From an uncultured Sulfuricurvum sp. (GTDB taxonomy: Bacteria > Campylobacterota > Campylobacteria > Campylobacterales > Sulfurimonadaceae): 64,000 nucleotides of DNA. Made by a program: the position numbers and the translations under genes. Numbering within the stretch: the stretch's first letter is position 1; the number at the start of each line of letters is the position of its first letter. Under the pieces are notes generated by a model that searched no databases, was not told where the DNA came from, and saw nothing but the letters and a program-made list of their open reading frames with translations. The stretch is from the NCBI GenBank assembly GCA_903844635.1, contig CAIMUF010000038.1, forward strand, positions 62,001 to 126,000, in the 5' to 3' direction. Of this stretch, positions 6,260 to 64,000 are shown piece after piece.

Positions 6260-7090
6260 TTACTTTTGATAAATGAGTGTTGAGTCGATTTTTTTAGCCT
6301 TAAAGACAGAAGTAATACGACTCATATACTCTGCATGTCCTAACAATACATAACCACCGACGTTGACCATATCATAAAAAGTCATTACTACCTCTTTACG
6401 ACTTGCATCATCAAAATAAATCAGCATGTTTCGTGAAAAGATAACATCAAATTTTCCCAATTGACGCATTTGCGTTTTATCAAAGATATTGGCTACTTTG
6501 AAATCAACCGTTCCAACTAAATCATCGATCAAATCAAATCCTAGTGTCCGTTTTTTAAAATACTTAGCCAATGCTCCAGCTGGAATTGCATGAATTGAAC
6601 GCTCGCTGTATTTCCCTAATTTTGCTTTGGCAATAACCGTACTGTCAATATCGATTCCCACAACTTCAATATCTCTTTCTTCAATCAGGCGCGCTTCTTC
6701 AAGCAAATGCAAAATGACTGAATACGGTTCCTCTCCCGTCGAACATGGGGCACAAAGAATCCGAATCGGTGCTGTTCGAGATTTTACGGCATGAAGTTCT
6801 GGCAAAATACGATCAACTAAAACTTCAAACTGCTCTTTTTCCCGATAAAAATAGGTTTCGTTTACCGTCACTGCATTCATCAGTTCTTGAAACTCTGTCC
6901 CATCCTTATCTTCAAATCGCAAGGTATAAAAATACTTTCGAAACGAGTCTGCATTGATCACCTTTGCCCGAGCGTCGATGTATTTTGCTAATTTGTCAAA
7001 ATGCTTATCGACTTCCAAAAAAATTCCCGTTTTGCGGTAAATGTAATCGGTCATTTTATGGAAGCTTTCGTCGTTTAAAAGATAGGCCAT
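6260..7090 (-). CDS. cheR: CheR chemoreceptor methyltransferase
   Basis: 276 residues, standard for CheR. The N-terminal helical domain spans about 1-80, followed by the SAM-dependent methyltransferase domain with NETYFYRE, the SAM-binding loop CSTGEEPYS and the late motif FSRNMLIYFD. It methylates glutamates on chemoreceptors using S-adenosylmethionine and opposes CheB, which is encoded two genes upstream. There is no C-terminal NWETF-binding β-subdomain signature that I can name. The soluble receptor of the operon has many Glu/Gln pairs in its helices, but I could not assign methylation sites. It follows the HEAT gene by 3 bp. Confidence 0.95.
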   Translation of the reverse strand: MAYLLNDESFHKMTDYIYRKTGIFLEVDKHFDKLAKYIDARAKVINADSFRKYFYTLRFEDKDGTEFQELMNAVTVNETYFYREKEQFEVLVDRILPELHAVKSRTAPIRILCAPCSTGEEPYSVILHLLEEARLIEERDIEVVGIDIDSTVIAKAKLGKYSERSIHAIPAGALAKYFKKRTLGFDLIDDLVGTVDFKVANIFDKTQMRQLGKFDVIFSRNMLIYFDDASRKEVVMTFYDMVNVGGYVLLGHAEYMSRITSVFKAKKIDSTLIYQK

Positions 7091-7093
7091 ACT

Positions 7094-7720
7094 TTACCCC
7101 CGAATACTGCGGATAGCATTGTCAACCGCGAAATCAACATATGCATCGTTAAATCGCCCTTTGACGCTGTTCAAAAGCTCAATGTCGCGAACTTCTCCGA
7201 TTTCTGCCATATAATCCACCGCCGTCATTGCTACATTAATATCCGTTTCATTCTCCAAAAGTTCGACAAGCATTTCACGAGATTCAGCAAAATTCACATC
7301 ACCTAAAACATTGATGGCAAAAATACGTAAATCGCGATCATTCCCTATAAGAAATTTAACAATGTAATATTTGATTGCATCCCCATAACTTTGCAGTGTT
7401 GTAATCCCCAAATTACGAATATACGCATTACGAACTTTTAACAAATCCATAATTGCTTCGATCGGGGCACGCTTAGAATCCATCGCGGTGAGCAACGATG
7501 CGATATAGCTTGCCATATCTTTATGAATATGAGGGTCATCCACCAATAAATGAACCAGCTTTGCTCCACCGCCCTCAAAAGAGACAATTTTTTCTGCCGC
7601 ATACGCTTGAGATTCAAAATTTCCCTCATTGGAATGATAATAGGCCATTGCTTCCGGGAGTGTCTGTAATGGAGGGAATTCCTCAATTATAGGTGCTGTA
7701 TGTTTTTTTATTAATGCCAT
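7094..7720 (-). CDS. HEAT-repeat scaffold protein of the chemosensory operon
   Basis: 208 residues, all helical, with repeated two-helix units of about 31 residues: KDMASYIASLLTAMDS, RNAYIRNLGITTLQSYG, DRDLRIFAINVLGDVN and DINVAMTAVDYMAEIG. These fit HEAT repeats of the PBS-lyase kind. HEAT proteins are protein-binding scaffolds with no catalysis. The first five residues, MALIK, followed by a basic residue, match the first residues of the soluble receptor at 10162-12048 (MALIRR); the first 13 bases of the two genes are identical. A shared N-terminal peptide in one operon suggests a common binding partner, possibly the ParA ATPase. It sits between cheB and cheR, so it may act in adaptation or array assembly; its function is not established. 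Confidence 0.7.
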   Translation of the reverse strand: MALIKKHTAPIIEEFPPLQTLPEAMAYYHSNEGNFESQAYAAEKIVSFEGGGAKLVHLLVDDPHIHKDMASYIASLLTAMDSKRAPIEAIMDLLKVRNAYIRNLGITTLQSYGDAIKYYIVKFLIGNDRDLRIFAINVLGDVNFAESREMLVELLENETDINVAMTAVDYMAEIGEVRDIELLNSVKGRFNDAYVDFAVDNAIRSIRG

Positions 7721-7730
7721 ATAATCTCCT

Positions 7731-8789
7731 TTAATGTAATGTTTGCAGTGCGCGTACTATTTTTGGAAACGGTAACTGTTGGGACACGCCACCACGATCA
7801 AATGCCTCTTTTGGCATACCATACACCGTTGCTGTCTCTTCCGATTCTCCGATAGTAAATCCACCTGCATTTTTGATTTTCACCATCCCGCTGGCTCCAT
7901 CATCCCCAATACCTGTCAACAAAACAGCCGTAATTTGATCGCCTGAAAAGATCTTAGCCGCACTCTCAAACATCTCATCCACACTGGGTTGAAAAAAACG
8001 GTTGTTTTTATTTTTCTCTTCCCGTATTACAAATTTTCCCGTTACTTTTTTCGCAAAATGCATGTGCACGCCACCGCGCGCCAAATAAATCACTCCGCTT
8101 GAAAGCTCCATATGATCTTTACACTCGATAACCGGTAACGTGCTGACTTTATCTAATCGAGTCGCAAAAGCTGCCGTAAATTGCTCCGGCATGTGCTGAA
8201 CGATGCACGCCGCGTAGGGAAATCCTCTTGGCAGCGCTTTGCATATCTGCTCAATGAGTCCAGGACCTCCGGTAGAAGCACCTATTAATAACACTTTTGA
8301 TACCTCTACAAAAGCAGGAGTTTGCACCCCACTGCTTTCACGACGAACAGGAGCTCGCTCTCGTTGTACAGGCCGTCTGACGATCGTCTTTAACCGACGA
8401 GGCGGAATACGGCTAAGAGACGTTACTTTTGCAAGAATGTCTTCTCGATTTTCCGATTTTCCCACATTCATGGTTCCAGGTTTGGCAATATAATCAACCG
8501 CACCCGCATCCAATGCCTCCATCGTAATGCCAGCACTCTCAGTGGTGAGAGAGCTGATCATCAAAATAGGAGTAGGTCGCGTCTCCATAATACGTTTTAC
8601 TGCGGTGAGACCATCCATCACAGGCATATTTATATCCATGGTGATCACATCGTATTGAGTTTCTATCGCTTTTTGTACCGCTTCCTGCCCGTTGCGTGCA
8701 GTTTCAATTTCAAAATCCAATGTCCCTATAATCTCACTAAGCTGCTTACGAACCAAAGCGGAATCATCGGCTATCAATACTTTTTTCAC
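7731..8789 (-). CDS. cheB: CheB receptor methylesterase/glutamine deamidase
   Basis: 352 residues with a receiver domain at about 1-118 (D8-D9, phospho-acceptor D52 in TMDINMPVMDG, K103), an Arg-rich linker at about 129-160, and the CheB esterase domain with catalytic S172 in GASTGGPG, H199 in QHMPEQF and D296 in TGIGDDGASGM. It removes methyl groups from receptors when phosphorylated by CheA, resetting sensitivity. The ATG overlaps the stop of the three-domain CheW gene (ATGA), and the HEAT gene follows 10 bp later. The very basic linker is longer than a minimal one, but the protein length is normal for the family. Confidence 0.95.
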   Translation of the reverse strand: MKKVLIADDSALVRKQLSEIIGTLDFEIETARNGQEAVQKAIETQYDVITMDINMPVMDGLTAVKRIMETRPTPILMISSLTTESAGITMEALDAGAVDYIAKPGTMNVGKSENREDILAKVTSLSRIPPRRLKTIVRRPVQRERAPVRRESSGVQTPAFVEVSKVLLIGASTGGPGLIEQICKALPRGFPYAACIVQHMPEQFTAAFATRLDKVSTLPVIECKDHMELSSGVIYLARGGVHMHFAKKVTGKFVIREEKNKNNRFFQPSVDEMFESAAKIFSGDQITAVLLTGIGDDGASGMVKIKNAGGFTIGESEETATVYGMPKEAFDRGGVSQQLPFPKIVRALQTLH

Positions 8790-10156
8790 GATTTATCCCC
8801 TCGCAAGAGTTGAGATACATTAGGATTAAATAACATCACCAACCGTTCTCCTTCATTTAAATGAAGAACATGCGAAAATATTCCCTCTTCCCCATCATCT
8901 TTGCGCATCAAATCATGAGGTATTGCCATAACATCACTCACGTAGTTCACAAAAAAACCAATCCGAGAACCTTGTGCATGACAAATAATAATCTTTTGAT
9001 CCTCTCGATGTGATGGTTCAATGCCTAACCGCTTGTGCAATGAGCCAATCGTAACAATCTGCCCGCGTATGTTGATAATCCCATCAATCATCTCATGAGA
9101 ATCTGCGACGGGAGTCACGGGTGTCATATCAATAATCTCAGCTACTTCTTCGATCTCAAACGCATATTCTTCACTTCCAAGCTGAAAAATCACAACTTCT
9201 ATCGATGCTTCTTGCGTCGTATCGGTAAGTATCGCTTCACTGTTTACAATAATCTCATCATTACGAGACATAATCGACTCGATGAGTTCCTCGCCAATGA
9301 GAGAAATGAGATGGTCTTCAAATTGAATAACCCCTGCTATTTGGTTGCTGTTGTCACCACTGATATCAATGTCTGACTGAGAAAATTCATGAATATCAAC
9401 AATCTCATCAATCACAAGTCCCAATGTTCTACCCTGACGCTGAACAATCATAATTCTATTTTTATCCCCAAGAATGGGTTGATAATGGAAATACAAGCGT
9501 AAATCAGCCACAACGATGAGCTCTTCACGCAGCGACATCATCCCTTGTATCTCTGGATTAGCTCCTGCAATGGTTGTGATAGCAACATCTGCATTTAAAA
9601 TCTCTCGAAGATTATCAATCAGCAATGCGTATTGCACCCCTCCCATCTTAAATACAAGATAACGCTCATGCTCATTGGACAGCATAGCATGCTTAATGGC
9701 TATTGTTTTGTCACTGACATTACGAGGATTAACCGAAACTTTTTGAACTCGCTTCATAGCATGGTCTAAATCAATGACTTGAATCAATTCATCCTCGTGA
9801 TGAAGGATCGCTGCAATTATCTCTTTATTCGTTTCCAGATACTCAATTTTTTTAGGGTCAACCGTAACGGAAACACTAACCTCATCGACAAGTAAACACA
9901 AGGCACTCCAAGGAGCATTCAGCGTAATAACACGATTTTTAGGCTCAATTCCAGGACAGGATGGAAACCCCAAAAGAAGATTGATATCAATGGCCGTAGC
10001 AATGTTGCCGCCCAACGCACACAACCCTCGAACCTCGTCAGGGCTAAGCGCCAAAGGGGTAATATCAGGAACACGAAGAATTTGACCAATAAAAGAGGTG
10101 GGAATACCAAAAGCAATCTCACCATGTCTGAATATCAAAACTTCTTCGAATAACAT
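8786..10156 (-). CDS. three-domain CheW scaffold protein
   Basis: 456 residues made of three CheW-type domains in tandem, at about 1-140, 163-300 and 318-455. Each shows the family pattern of a hydrophobic first strand (FGIPTSFIGQIL; YALLIDNLREIL; YAFEIEEVAEII), a central turn (EVRGLCALGG; EIQGMMSLREE; MIDGIINIRGQ) and a second barrel with a VDEV/IDEI-like strand. The third domain keeps the canonical GIINIRGQ and is most CheW-like. Multi-CheW proteins can bridge several receptors and kinases. With the two CheW-CZB proteins the operon encodes five CheW modules and no plain one-domain CheW. It lies 5 bp downstream of the receptor gene and overlaps cheB by 4 bp. Confidence 0.85.
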   Translation of the reverse strand: MLFEEVLIFRHGEIAFGIPTSFIGQILRVPDITPLALSPDEVRGLCALGGNIATAIDINLLLGFPSCPGIEPKNRVITLNAPWSALCLLVDEVSVSVTVDPKKIEYLETNKEIIAAILHHEDELIQVIDLDHAMKRVQKVSVNPRNVSDKTIAIKHAMLSNEHERYLVFKMGGVQYALLIDNLREILNADVAITTIAGANPEIQGMMSLREELIVVADLRLYFHYQPILGDKNRIMIVQRQGRTLGLVIDEIVDIHEFSQSDIDISGDNSNQIAGVIQFEDHLISLIGEELIESIMSRNDEIIVNSEAILTDTTQEASIEVVIFQLGSEEYAFEIEEVAEIIDMTPVTPVADSHEMIDGIINIRGQIVTIGSLHKRLGIEPSHREDQKIIICHAQGSRIGFFVNYVSDVMAIPHDLMRKDDGEEGIFSHVLHLNEGERLVMLFNPNVSQLLRGDKS

Positions 10157-10161
10157 GAAAC

Positions 10162-12048
10162 TTATCCTTGTTGAAGTTCATCTGCCATAACAGCCAACTC
10201 TTCAACCCCCTCAGAGATGTGACTCACTGTTTCGATAATCAATTCGCTGGCTTTTCGTGATTCTTGTGCATTACGCGCTGAGAGTTCAACCGCTTTTTGA
10301 ATTTCACTGATTCCTATGAGTCCTTGATTAAGCCCTTCGATATTTTGATCATTAATGGATTTTAGTCCCGTAAAACGATCCAACAAATCAATCAGCATCG
10401 TTGTGATCTTATCAATCTCATGAATCAATGCCGTAATTTGCTCTTTTTCACCTTCTTGATTTACAAGAAGTTTTAACCACTCCGTGCGTACGGTATCGAT
10501 TTCAGCGTTCATTGATTCGATTGTATCGTTGATTTTTTCCGTATTGGATTCAGAATCTTTGGCAAGATTACGGATATCGGCACTAACGACTGCAAATCCT
10601 TTTCCAAAGTCTCCTGCCCGTGCCGCTTCAATAGAACCACTGATAGCGAGCATGTTGAGTTGAATGATACTGTTGCTGATACTTCCTACTGTTTTATCAA
10701 CGTTACGAGTCTCTTTTACGATGACATCAAGCTCACTGCTTGCGCTTCCACCCTCATTCATAGAAGCAGTGAAATCATTGCTAATACCGATCATTTGCCC
10801 TTTTACATCTGCGAACGATACTTTCAGTAAATCAAAATTTCGACGTGCGATTTCGATAAGTTTAGAAATATCTCTTGATGCACTGACACCACTTTCAAAT
10901 AACTCTTTATTCGCAATGGCACTTTGATTAGTAGATTGAGATGCTGCTTCGATTTGGTTAAGTCCTGAAGTTACTTCTTTAAGAGAATTTTGAATGTCTT
11001 CCATCGATGAGCTGATTGCATCTGCAGATGCTGCAATCTCCTCTGCTGATTTCATCGTATCCGTTGAGTATTTGAGTTCTTCGGAAAGATTGTTAAGTTC
11101 TTTGATGTCTTCTTCAGTCTGAACAAGTGAATTACTTTGCATTTCGATGCTGTTAAGGGTTTTTTCGACTGAACGCGCGATTTCACTTGAAGCATCAGCG
11201 ATGTCTTTAGAACCGTCATTAATGAGAGTAATCGAGTGGCTTAGGCTTTGGGTATAACCGCTCATGCTGCGTGCCGCTTCGACGGAATAGACGGCGATTT
11301 TCGTAAGTTCTTCCATTTTGAAGCTCAACGCACTGCCACGTCCGCCGGTTTGTTCGATAATATTAGTCGTCGTATTGATGCTTTTGATGATTCCATCAAT
11401 GCTTTCTTGAATTTTATTCACAAGACGTGAGATAAAATCAGCATTTTTTTCGGATTCTCCTGCAAGTGCACGAGTCTCATCCGCAACCACCGCAAACCCT
11501 TTACCATGCTCTTTGGCACGACTGGCTTCGATAGCGGCATTGAGGGCTAACAGATTAGTTTGATCAGCAATTTTTGCAATAAACCCAACCGCTTCACCGA
11601 TATTTTCAGAGGATAATTTCAGCTCTTCAGATTTTTTAGAAGAGGTTTTAGCAACATTGACCGCTTTTGCCATTCGCTCCACAGAAGTATTAATCGTCCC
11701 CACCGAACTCATAATGTTTTCACCCGCCGCCAATGTTGAACTGATGACGGTATCAATACTGCTCGTCATGCGCCCGATATTGGAACTGATAGAGCGAACA
11801 TTTTTAAGTGCTTGCTCACTTGCGCCACTGTTTTCTTCTGCCGCTGTTGCGATTTGCTCCATGGAACTTTTGAGTTGTTCGATAGCACTAACGCTCTCTT
11901 GTGCATTGTCCAAAATCGTAGTAGCGACGCCTGCAATACTCTCAGAAATCTGCTGTTGTTTTGCCAATGTACGCTGACGTCGTTTGTCAGGTCCTACACT
12001 GCCACCTGCAGCCACTGGTGAACTCTCTGATCGTCTTATTAATGCCAT
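10162..12048 (-). CDS. soluble chemoreceptor with two tandem MCP signalling hairpins
   Basis: 628 residues with no transmembrane segment, signal peptide or recognisable ligand domain. Residues 1-30 are basic (MALIRR, DKRRQRTLAK). Hairpin tip 1 at about 159-196 is close to consensus ([19 protein letters not shown]). Tip 2 at about 456-496 is a second MCP tip with changes at the kinase-contact face (QLNMLAISGSIEAARAG, GKGFAVVSADIRNLA). Each tip is flanked by long heptad helices, so the protein is either two fused receptors or one with a duplicated, altered signalling unit. The adjacent PAS protein probably supplies the sensor. It should sit in a cytoplasmic array with CheA and the CheW proteins. 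AAGGAGA precedes the start. Confidence 0.85.
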   Translation of the reverse strand: MALIRRSESSPVAAGGSVGPDKRRQRTLAKQQQISESIAGVATTILDNAQESVSAIEQLKSSMEQIATAAEENSGASEQALKNVRSISSNIGRMTSSIDTVISSTLAAGENIMSSVGTINTSVERMAKAVNVAKTSSKKSEELKLSSENIGEAVGFIAKIADQTNLLALNAAIEASRAKEHGKGFAVVADETRALAGESEKNADFISRLVNKIQESIDGIIKSINTTTNIIEQTGGRGSALSFKMEELTKIAVYSVEAARSMSGYTQSLSHSITLINDGSKDIADASSEIARSVEKTLNSIEMQSNSLVQTEEDIKELNNLSEELKYSTDTMKSAEEIAASADAISSSMEDIQNSLKEVTSGLNQIEAASQSTNQSAIANKELFESGVSASRDISKLIEIARRNFDLLKVSFADVKGQMIGISNDFTASMNEGGSASSELDVIVKETRNVDKTVGSISNSIIQLNMLAISGSIEAARAGDFGKGFAVVSADIRNLAKDSESNTEKINDTIESMNAEIDTVRTEWLKLLVNQEGEKEQITALIHEIDKITTMLIDLLDRFTGLKSINDQNIEGLNQGLIGISEIQKAVELSARNAQESRKASELIIETVSHISEGVEELAVMADELQQG

Positions 12049-62103: not shown

Positions 62104-62191
62104 GGACAGCTGGCCGAGTGGTCGAAGGCGCACGCCTGGAACGCGTGTAAAGGGCAACCTTTCTAGGGTTCGAATCCCTAGCTGTCCGCCA
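62104..62191 (+). tRNA. tRNA-Ser (GGA), integration target
   Basis: An 88-nt cloverleaf with a long variable arm. Acceptor GGACAGC pairs with GCTGTCC, with G and encoded CCA. The anticodon stem-loop CACGC-CTGGAAC-GCGTG gives GGA, reading UCC and UCU. The T-arm is CTAGG-GTTCGAATC-CCTAG. An integrase gene starts on the 3' side, so its 3' end is the likely attachment core. Confidence 0.96.
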
Positions 62192-62441
62192 TACATCGGA
62201 AAACCTCTTCAAAACCCCTAAAATAGGCTCTTATTCTAAGACAGATAACGCCAAAATAAATGACTATGATACTTTTAAAAAAAAGTGTGATACTTCGCTA
62301 AAACGCTACAAAGTTAATGACAGCTATTATTTCAGAAGGCGAATCAACAAAAAACTTTATAGAATTTCATTAAGAACCAAGAATTTTAAGATAGCTTTAT
62401 CCCGAAAACGGCTTTTAGAGCTTTTAAGCAGAGAGGAATTT
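62151..62441 (+). other. open frame upstream of the integrase, from the tRNA 3' half (probable attL and hidden integrase N-terminus)
   Basis: 97 in-frame codons without a stop lead from the tRNA (after a TAA at 62148) to the first ATG of the integrase. They contain no ATG, GTG or TTG. The last 41 codons before the ATG encode YYFRRRINKKLYRISLRT and NFKIALSRKRLLEL, a typical N-terminal segment of tyrosine integrases, so the true protein begins before the ATG. The tRNA 3' end (62151-62191) is inside the frame. Confidence 0.55.
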
Positions 62442-63476
62442 ATGTATACATTAGAGATGGGTGATTACAAATATATTTTTGAATATGATACCCCCGAAGA
62501 ATTAGAGAAATATCTGAAACTTACAATGGCAACGCACGAACAAGCGGAAGAAATACGCAATCGCCACACTATTACCCATAAAATTATTGAAAAAGAAGAA
62601 CAATATCCCAAAGATAAAGGGATGGGGATTTCATTTTACGACCTTGAAACAAAATTACTTGTATCAAAGAAAAAACTTAATAAAGTATCTGATAGTTCTT
62701 ATAAGGCTTACGCAAGCACTTTTAACAAGTTAAAAGAGTTTTTCAATAAAACAAAGATAAATGAGATCACTATCGAAGATTTTGAGGGGTTTCGTGATTT
62801 CTTGGCTGATGAATATGATTTAGTAAACAAAACTATTAACAACCATATGAAGTATGTAAATATGTTTTTAGAATATGGTGTTAATTACAAGCTTATTGAC
62901 GAAAACAATGTTAAAGGGATTGAAAACCTTAAAGAGGATTCACCAGATAAAGAAAACTTCACGAATGATGATATTAAAAATATTCTCTCTTACGGCTATC
63001 CCCAAAATTTTAAAGACATTTTCAAAATCGGCGCCTATACGGGAATGCGAGTATCTGAAATAAATAATCTCACCAAAGAGAGCATAAAAGTGGACGAGAA
63101 TGAGATTTATTATTTTGACATTTCGAAGTCAAAAACAAAATCAGGCATCCGAAAAGTTCCAATACATAAAGATATTTTAGAGGATGTTTTAAAAATGGAG
63201 TTCCCTTTAATATCTGAAAAAACAGAAGATGCTTGTCAAAAAGTTATATTAAGACAACTCTATAAAGTGATTCAAAAAGAAAGCACTAAAAGTTTTCATA
63301 CGTTTAGAGGCACATTTATCTCCAAATGTATAAACAATTTTCCTGAAAAGGTCTTAATTGTTCAGGAAATAGTGGGGCACAGTAAAGGTAAATTCACTTT
63401 AACTGTTGATGATTATGGGCATGGTTTTGACCTAAACTTGAAGCAAGAGATTGTTAATAGTCTCTCTTTCTTATAA
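62442..63476 (+). CDS. tyrosine-recombinase integrase
   Basis: 344 residues from the first ATG, but homology-like sequence extends at least 41 codons upstream (see 62151-62441), so this start may be false. A SAM-like core-binding domain lies at about 75-165 (SYKAYASTFNKLKEFF, TINNHMKYVNMFLEYG) and the catalytic domain at about 170-335 with Arg in TGMRVSE, Lys in SKTKSG, HTFR, GHS and Tyr in VDDYGHGF, so the catalytic set is complete. It directs integration of the element at the tRNA-Ser 3' end. The base composition is more AT-rich than in neighbouring genes, fitting horizontal transfer. Confidence 0.88.
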   Translation: MYTLEMGDYKYIFEYDTPEELEKYLKLTMATHEQAEEIRNRHTITHKIIEKEEQYPKDKGMGISFYDLETKLLVSKKKLNKVSDSSYKAYASTFNKLKEFFNKTKINEITIEDFEGFRDFLADEYDLVNKTINNHMKYVNMFLEYGVNYKLIDENNVKGIENLKEDSPDKENFTNDDIKNILSYGYPQNFKDIFKIGAYTGMRVSEINNLTKESIKVDENEIYYFDISKSKTKSGIRKVPIHKDILEDVLKMEFPLISEKTEDACQKVILRQLYKVIQKESTKSFHTFRGTFISKCINNFPEKVLIVQEIVGHSKGKFTLTVDDYGHGFDLNLKQEIVNSLSFL

Positions 63477-63479
63477 AAA

Positions 63480-63992
63480 TTAAATTATAGACTCCGCTAT
63501 CATTTCTTTGATTTCGTTGTCTATTTCAGCCGTAATATCCCATTCTCTCTCGATTTTGGTTTTAACTTCTTGCTGTTCAGCTTCAATGGTTTTTTCACCC
63601 GTAAAAAAATCATAACCGATTGTAAGTCTTAACGCCTTAACACTGTTCCAATCTCCTTTTCCAAATAAAAATGGATTAAGCGTATAAAGTCCAGTATCTT
63701 TTTTTAGCAGTATGTCTTTTTTGATTAGCATAGAGATAGCATTATTAAGCGTCTGCATTGATGTTCCAAGTTTGCTGACCAATTCCCGTTTCTTCCCAAC
63801 ACTTAATTGGATTTCATTGGTATTCCATCCCGCCATACTGAACAACTCAAATAAAAATTGGTTCTGCTGTGGTGCTAATCCGTGAAGTTTTGCTATGTCT
63901 TTTAGATAGATTTTTATATAACCCTCTTCCTTTTCTATCTTTATTGATTTTGTAGATTTCTCTACAATCATTTCCACTTCTTGCGTTTCCAT
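63480..63992 (-). CDS. RepL-like plasmid replication/winged-helix protein
   Basis: 170 residues. A winged-helix core at about 30-110 shows GYIKIYLKDIAKLHGLAP, NQFLFELF, SVGKKRELVSKLGTSMQTLNNAIS and LIKKDILLKKDTGLYTLNP, the order seen in RepL-type replication initiators of small plasmids (Y-x-x-LNP close to the end of the wing). It is convergent with the integrase gene. The pair suggests an integrated plasmid or mobilisable element. It might instead be a regulator of the same fold. It is AT-rich. Only eight bases remain after its start. Confidence 0.6.
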   Translation of the reverse strand: METQEVEMIVEKSTKSIKIEKEEGYIKIYLKDIAKLHGLAPQQNQFLFELFSMAGWNTNEIQLSVGKKRELVSKLGTSMQTLNNAISMLIKKDILLKKDTGLYTLNPFLFGKGDWNSVKALRLTIGYDFFTGEKTIEAEQQEVKTKIEREWDITAEIDNEIKEMIAESII

Positions 63993-64000
63993 ATTTTTAG

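Follow-up and report, generated by a model that had tools for sequence, protein, structure and literature searches.

An integrase gene very probably divided by its own attachment site in an integrative element of an uncultured Sulfuricurvum

Integrases whose genes meet the attachment site

The "suicidal" integrases of the SSV type (type I; SSV1, pTN3, pT26-2) were characterized in a 2021 review as exclusively archaeal (PMC8371274). Their attP lies within the integrase gene (int) at a tRNA-derived sequence, and on integration the gene is cut in two, the start codon going with the 5' part and the catalytic domain with the 3' part, which then has no start; the carriers are small plasmids and viruses that also occur as circles (PMC8371274). 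The same arrangement was found, in silico, for an element inserted in a tRNA-Ser gene of an uncultured Sulfuricurvum sp. and for its relatives. However, these elements are bacterial, their core comprises 17-24 bp as against 40-50 bp in the SSV type (PMC8371274), the core stands between arm-type repeats, and the part split off measures only about 20-35 codons. The signature domain Phage_integr_3 (PF16795) was matched weakly by one of the ten members compared (E 0.00078) and not by the integrase under study, so that membership of the SSV-type family, which is marked by PF16795 and an archaeal host, is not met. The "suicidal" way of working, with attP in its own int and the start and catalytic domain on opposite sides, is met in silico, the loss of expression being inferred. 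The integrase thus works like an SSV-type one while standing outside that family and, because the domain of the SSV group is missing, the likeness is apparently a convergence.

Among bacteria, the authors of Islander named the integrases of Mx8 and SSV as extending across attP (PMC4383910), and in the Myxococcus phages Mx8 and Mx9 the gene of a tyrosine integrase likewise spans attP, with its product changed by integration (PMC6070905, PMC4701971, PMC4383910). The Mx8 integrase swaps its 3' end and remains active with altered properties (PMC6070905, PMC4701971), its start codon being retained, whereas in the present gene it is the 5' end with the ribosome-binding site (RBS) and the ATG that is lost. 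The Mx8-type arrangement (attP in the 3' part, C-terminus exchanged) is therefore not met, since here attP lies 5' and the C-terminus is unchanged. In ICEKp1 and ICEclc, circularization similarly places the other element end upstream of int and alters its expression, but the changes described concern the promoter or transcription of int with no coding exchange (PMC13023037), while here the start and first codons are exchanged. In KplE1, attL with its arm sites overlaps the expression signals of intS and controls its promoter, yet intS has its own ATG beside attL and an unsplit coding sequence (PMC2951348). No description of a bacterial integrase losing its start codon on integration was found in the open-access literature, nor was a 5'-split precedent found in the "helper-embedded satellites" (PMC10111431) or the Oenococcus prophages (PMC8074189).

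The significance of the arrangement is that a bacterial family, present in several families of a single order, separates the 5' end from the rest of int, and does so at more than one tRNA target. The integrase would thereby be controlled at the level of DNA, without the need of a repressor; the arrangement also explains why such genes are annotated as truncated or as starting too late, and it allows the mode of excision of "suicidal" elements to be tested in bacteria.

Element ends, the empty site and the rebuilt circle

The analysed window of 64,000 nucleotides corresponds to C38:62001-126000 of an 86-contig genome (G000), and the remainder of the contig was examined as L010. The integration target, a tRNA-Ser (GGA) called by ARAGORN at 62104-62191 on the forward strand, is intact in attL, its 3' end being restored by the element's own copy. 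The integrase frame begins at 62151, after a TAA inside this tRNA gene (62148-62150), and continues on the same strand as far as its stop codon (63474-63476); counted from the core it has 433 codons, and its earliest ATG, GTG or TTG is at 62442. The first-pass annotation had noticed 97 codons open between the TAA and this ATG, without any of the three start codons, and had taken them for the integrase N-terminus, and both statements are borne out. A stop-free run of this length is expected in 0.015% of composition-matched random sequence, a lack of start codons over the same length has P ~0.02 at the gene's own codon usage, and the 97 codons align with integrases of other genomes at 36-53% identity; the stretch is thus real coding sequence. 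The SAM-like core-binding domain (PF13102) and Phage_integrase (PF00589) are both above cut-off, and the alignment displays TGMR, KSKT, HTFRG, GHSK and Y, with the conserved R, K, HxxR, H and Y, by which the criteria of a tyrosine recombinase are met. The N-terminal domain (YKVNDSYYFRRRI..., 62307-62441, forward strand), delimited by alignment, is presumed to bind arm sites, a role inferred with only weak recognition as DUF6538 (E 0.02 for this integrase; nine of ten members match, 0.0078 at best). A single-sequence structure model was of no use (pLDDT 35).

The attL core is the 19-bp TCCCTAGCTGTCCGCCATA at 62175-62193 (forward strand), read as SLAVRH in the integrase frame. An identical copy in direct orientation, attR, lies beyond the window at L010:6756-6774 (66755 on the window scale, C38:128755), 4580 bp from the attL core on the same contig. 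A 22-base search for attR with at most three mismatches had matched attL alone, because the common core comprises 19 bp and begins later; attR was recognized by reading through the contig. Three genomes of the same genus (G002, G005 and G008) contain the same tRNA-Ser neighbourhood without the element, the tRNA being directly joined to the sequence found after attR here (97% identical flank in G002). These empty attB sites establish the element ends and place the junction at the core, which, as had earlier been supposed, is formed by the 3' end of the tRNA. A further insertion of ~1.4 kb with a RhuM-family gene (L010:6823-8200), missing from the same three genomes, separates attR from the ancestral flank.

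The circle was rebuilt in silico by joining the left side of attR to the right side of attL. Its junction consists of AAAGGAAAAACT and then ATG ATA CTT TCT CTG TCC GCC AAA GAC TTA GAA AGC CTA TTT, followed by the remaining pre-core codons TAT GAC GTT TTG AAG AAT TTC TAT ACG CAG and then by the core codons TCC CTA GCT GTC CGC CAT A..., stop-free and in the frame of int. The rebuilt gene, with an AAGGA-N6-ATG start, consists of 24 pre-core and 433 further codons (457 in total). The conjecture that the start codon lies on the other side of attP and joins the gene in the circle, for which a search for the far site and a reconstruction of the circle had been proposed, is therefore supported by the in-frame ATG with its AAGGA, 24 codons before the core, and by the absence of a stop between this ATG and int.

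Accordingly, it is very probable that this 4.58-kb integrative element has its attP within the 5' end of int, and that the start is split off by integration and restored by excision. Both ends, the empty site and the restored frame are observed, as is the fact that relatives retain the arrangement and the split-off peptide; the use of the ATG, a lowering of integrase (Int) activity by integration and the supply of Int by a replicating (RepL) circle are inferred. One 457-codon gene would run in the circle from the RBS and the ATG over 24 codons and the tRNA-derived core into the remainder of int, and its full-length product would insert the circle at the tRNA-Ser 3' end. After crossover in the core, attR would carry the RBS, the ATG and 24 codons, and the other 433 codons would follow the tRNA at attL; the integrated copy would thus be unable to make full-length Int until excision restored the gene. 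However, neither the circle nor the start is attested by any read, transcript or protein. A natural circle was not seen, since the plasmid and phage collections contained only distant integrases, and scans of genome contigs and viral contigs gave no close relative. The excision route is also unexplained by the attP split, although a recombinase-like protein of the element might take part in it.

Conservation in related elements and the internal start

The integrase family was found beside a tRNA gene (Ser GGA, GCT or TGA, or Asn GTT) in 12 genomes, and in all 12 tRNA-adjacent copies the int frame continues without a stop into the 3' end of the tRNA. For eight elements from eight genomes, including this one, attR could be located on the same contig (tRNA-Ser or tRNA-Asn targets), and each of the eight rebuilt circles supplied an in-frame ATG with a Shine-Dalgarno (SD) match of at least 4 bases, 20-35 codons before the core. 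The same condition is fulfilled by chance at 3.8% of random positions in the same DNA and 1.0% in shuffled DNA, and it was never fulfilled (0/16) when these eight junctions were read in the other two frames; however, the eight elements are homologous, and a product of these chances overstates the case. A second tRNA-end repeat in G139 (14501) was tried as the partner of int and rejected, as it yields no start.

The split-off peptides are themselves conserved. The pattern SLSAKxxExL...LxxF is shared by G000, G139 and G279, and its FGAKELEAL version was found in G168 at another tRNA target; the G000 (Ser) and G168 (Asn) peptides align with a score of 51, which was reached by none of 2000 shuffles, and the pairwise scores in this group of four were beaten by at most 4 of 2000. 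The peptides of G392 and G356 form a separate similar pair, while those of G447 and G259 have no detectable similarity to the others, being too divergent to tell, which counts against the attP split. Because the split-off peptides are conserved, selection has kept them in coding register with int. The integrated int is broken in four other genomes (a frame shift in G168, stops in G356 and G248, a truncation in G447), as expected if it is dispensable. One tRNA-Asn copy (L016 of G324) crosses the tRNA in a different frame and contains in-frame ATGs before the domain; possibly this copy has shifted frame or is reverting, and its attR lies past the contig end.

A known start in relatives between the tRNA and the N-terminal domain would have refuted the split, as the first-pass annotation recognized, and no ATG, GTG or TTG with a recognizable SD was found there in any relative. 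In-frame ATGs without an SD do exist in this interval in G324, G447 and G168, and weigh against the attP split. That the integrated gene uses a rare start (ATA, ATT or CTG) in this interval is compatible with the open frame and its ATA codons, but is very improbable, as no near-cognate start with an SD precedes the domain in G000, none is common to the relatives, and such a start would not account for the conservation of ATG, SD and peptide over the junction. It is scarcely credible that int is damaged, although an ATG at 62260, 17 bases upstream of an A8 run (62277-62284), would enter the int frame by a -1 shift after a one-base slip there: this ATG has no SD and is not matched in any relative, the rest of int is intact, and the circle already supplies a proper start. 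Both near-cognate starts and A8 slippage were rejected.

A reservation about the switch concerns a start further downstream. At the end of the N-terminal domain, an SD-like AGAGAGGA with the ATG at 62442 (62430-62444, forward strand; AGAGAGGAATTT-ATG) would yield a 344-aa Int without that domain. Nearly all relatives have, at this alignment position, an SD-like GAGGA(G/A) and then ATG or TTG, the site being missing in G259 and weak in G266. Where the SD stretch exists, its first Glu codon is GAG (10/10 genes), as against 70 of 318 Glu codons (22%) elsewhere in the same genes, and TTG, rare otherwise, occupies the start position in G139 and G279. By this codon bias, selection for an internal RBS, and hence for a short Int, is pointed to from sequence alone. 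The integrated copy could therefore express the short form and may not be silent, and the wording "switch" used at first remains unproven in the absence of expression data. It is possible, though clearly short of an even chance, that the split is real and yet no off-switch, the integrated copy making the 344-aa Int in an exchange of isoforms or the short form alone serving excision; the evidence for this comes from nucleotides only, in lineages that are not independent, two of which have no site or a weak one, and archaeal integrases in truncated form showed no activity in vitro (PMC8371274). The attP split itself being retained, a fuller scheme is put forward tentatively, at somewhat less than even probability: recombination would swap isoforms, with full-length Int (N-terminal helix and arm-binding domain) made only across attP in the circle, a short arm-less Int from the internal RBS as the sole integrated form, and autoregulation added by Int bound on the P arm over the start.

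Arm repeats, cargo and host

Short repeats flank the core on both sides in each element, their sequence varying by element. In the present one, two candidate P'-arm Int sites lie on the forward strand inside the coding sequence, TATGATACTT at 62265-62274 and, 21 bp away, TGTGATACTT at 62286-62295; this pair translates as the family's YDT...YDT peptide (YDT...CDT here), and TATGATACTT recurs in the P arm at L010:6661-6670 and 6683-6692. The repeats of G279 (TATGATAC) stand at -103/-82 and +81/+102, and the corresponding sequences are ATGGATACA in G447 and TGTCCAAC in G259. In seven of the eight elements, the exception being G356, the longest common repeat was matched by less than 1% of shuffles. 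Spaced by 21-22 bp and symmetrically placed, the repeats are suggestive of arm-type sites for Int. The P-arm pair encloses the SD and overlies the ATG, and it is inferred that Int bound there could block its own expression.

The element encodes a RepL-type plasmid replication initiator on the reverse strand (63480-64000, with its start beyond the window; whole gene L010:3481-4041; Pfam RepL 31.3 bits, cut-off 20.3), together with a 125-aa protein, a 293-aa protein and a small protein, and is best read as an integrative plasmid. The 293-aa protein (L010:5219-6100), the second recombinase-like one, has the motifs LGFRVREA, HDFR and NH...Y without a Pfam match and is 21-28% identical over most of its length to annotated tyrosine recombinases of 8-19 kb Aeromonas and Vibrio plasmids; it could resolve plasmid multimers or help excision. 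In the element of G168, a CBASS-like set at offsets 6463-10465 from attL (patatin-like phospholipase, nucleotidyltransferase, ubiquitin-transfer-like proteins and a JAB peptidase) was recognized by eye from translations only.

Bacterial hosts are indicated by 16S rRNA and tmRNA. The 16S rRNA of four relatives contains the target sites of two Epsilonproteobacteria probes. The tmRNA was above the family cut-off in all 12 genomes, only such matches being counted, as the control gives weak signals elsewhere. Two full-length tmRNA matches were observed in G000 (C43:136-507 and C18:56957-57328), the latter of which adjoins another integrase gene (C18:58176), suggesting an island in the tmRNA gene at C18.
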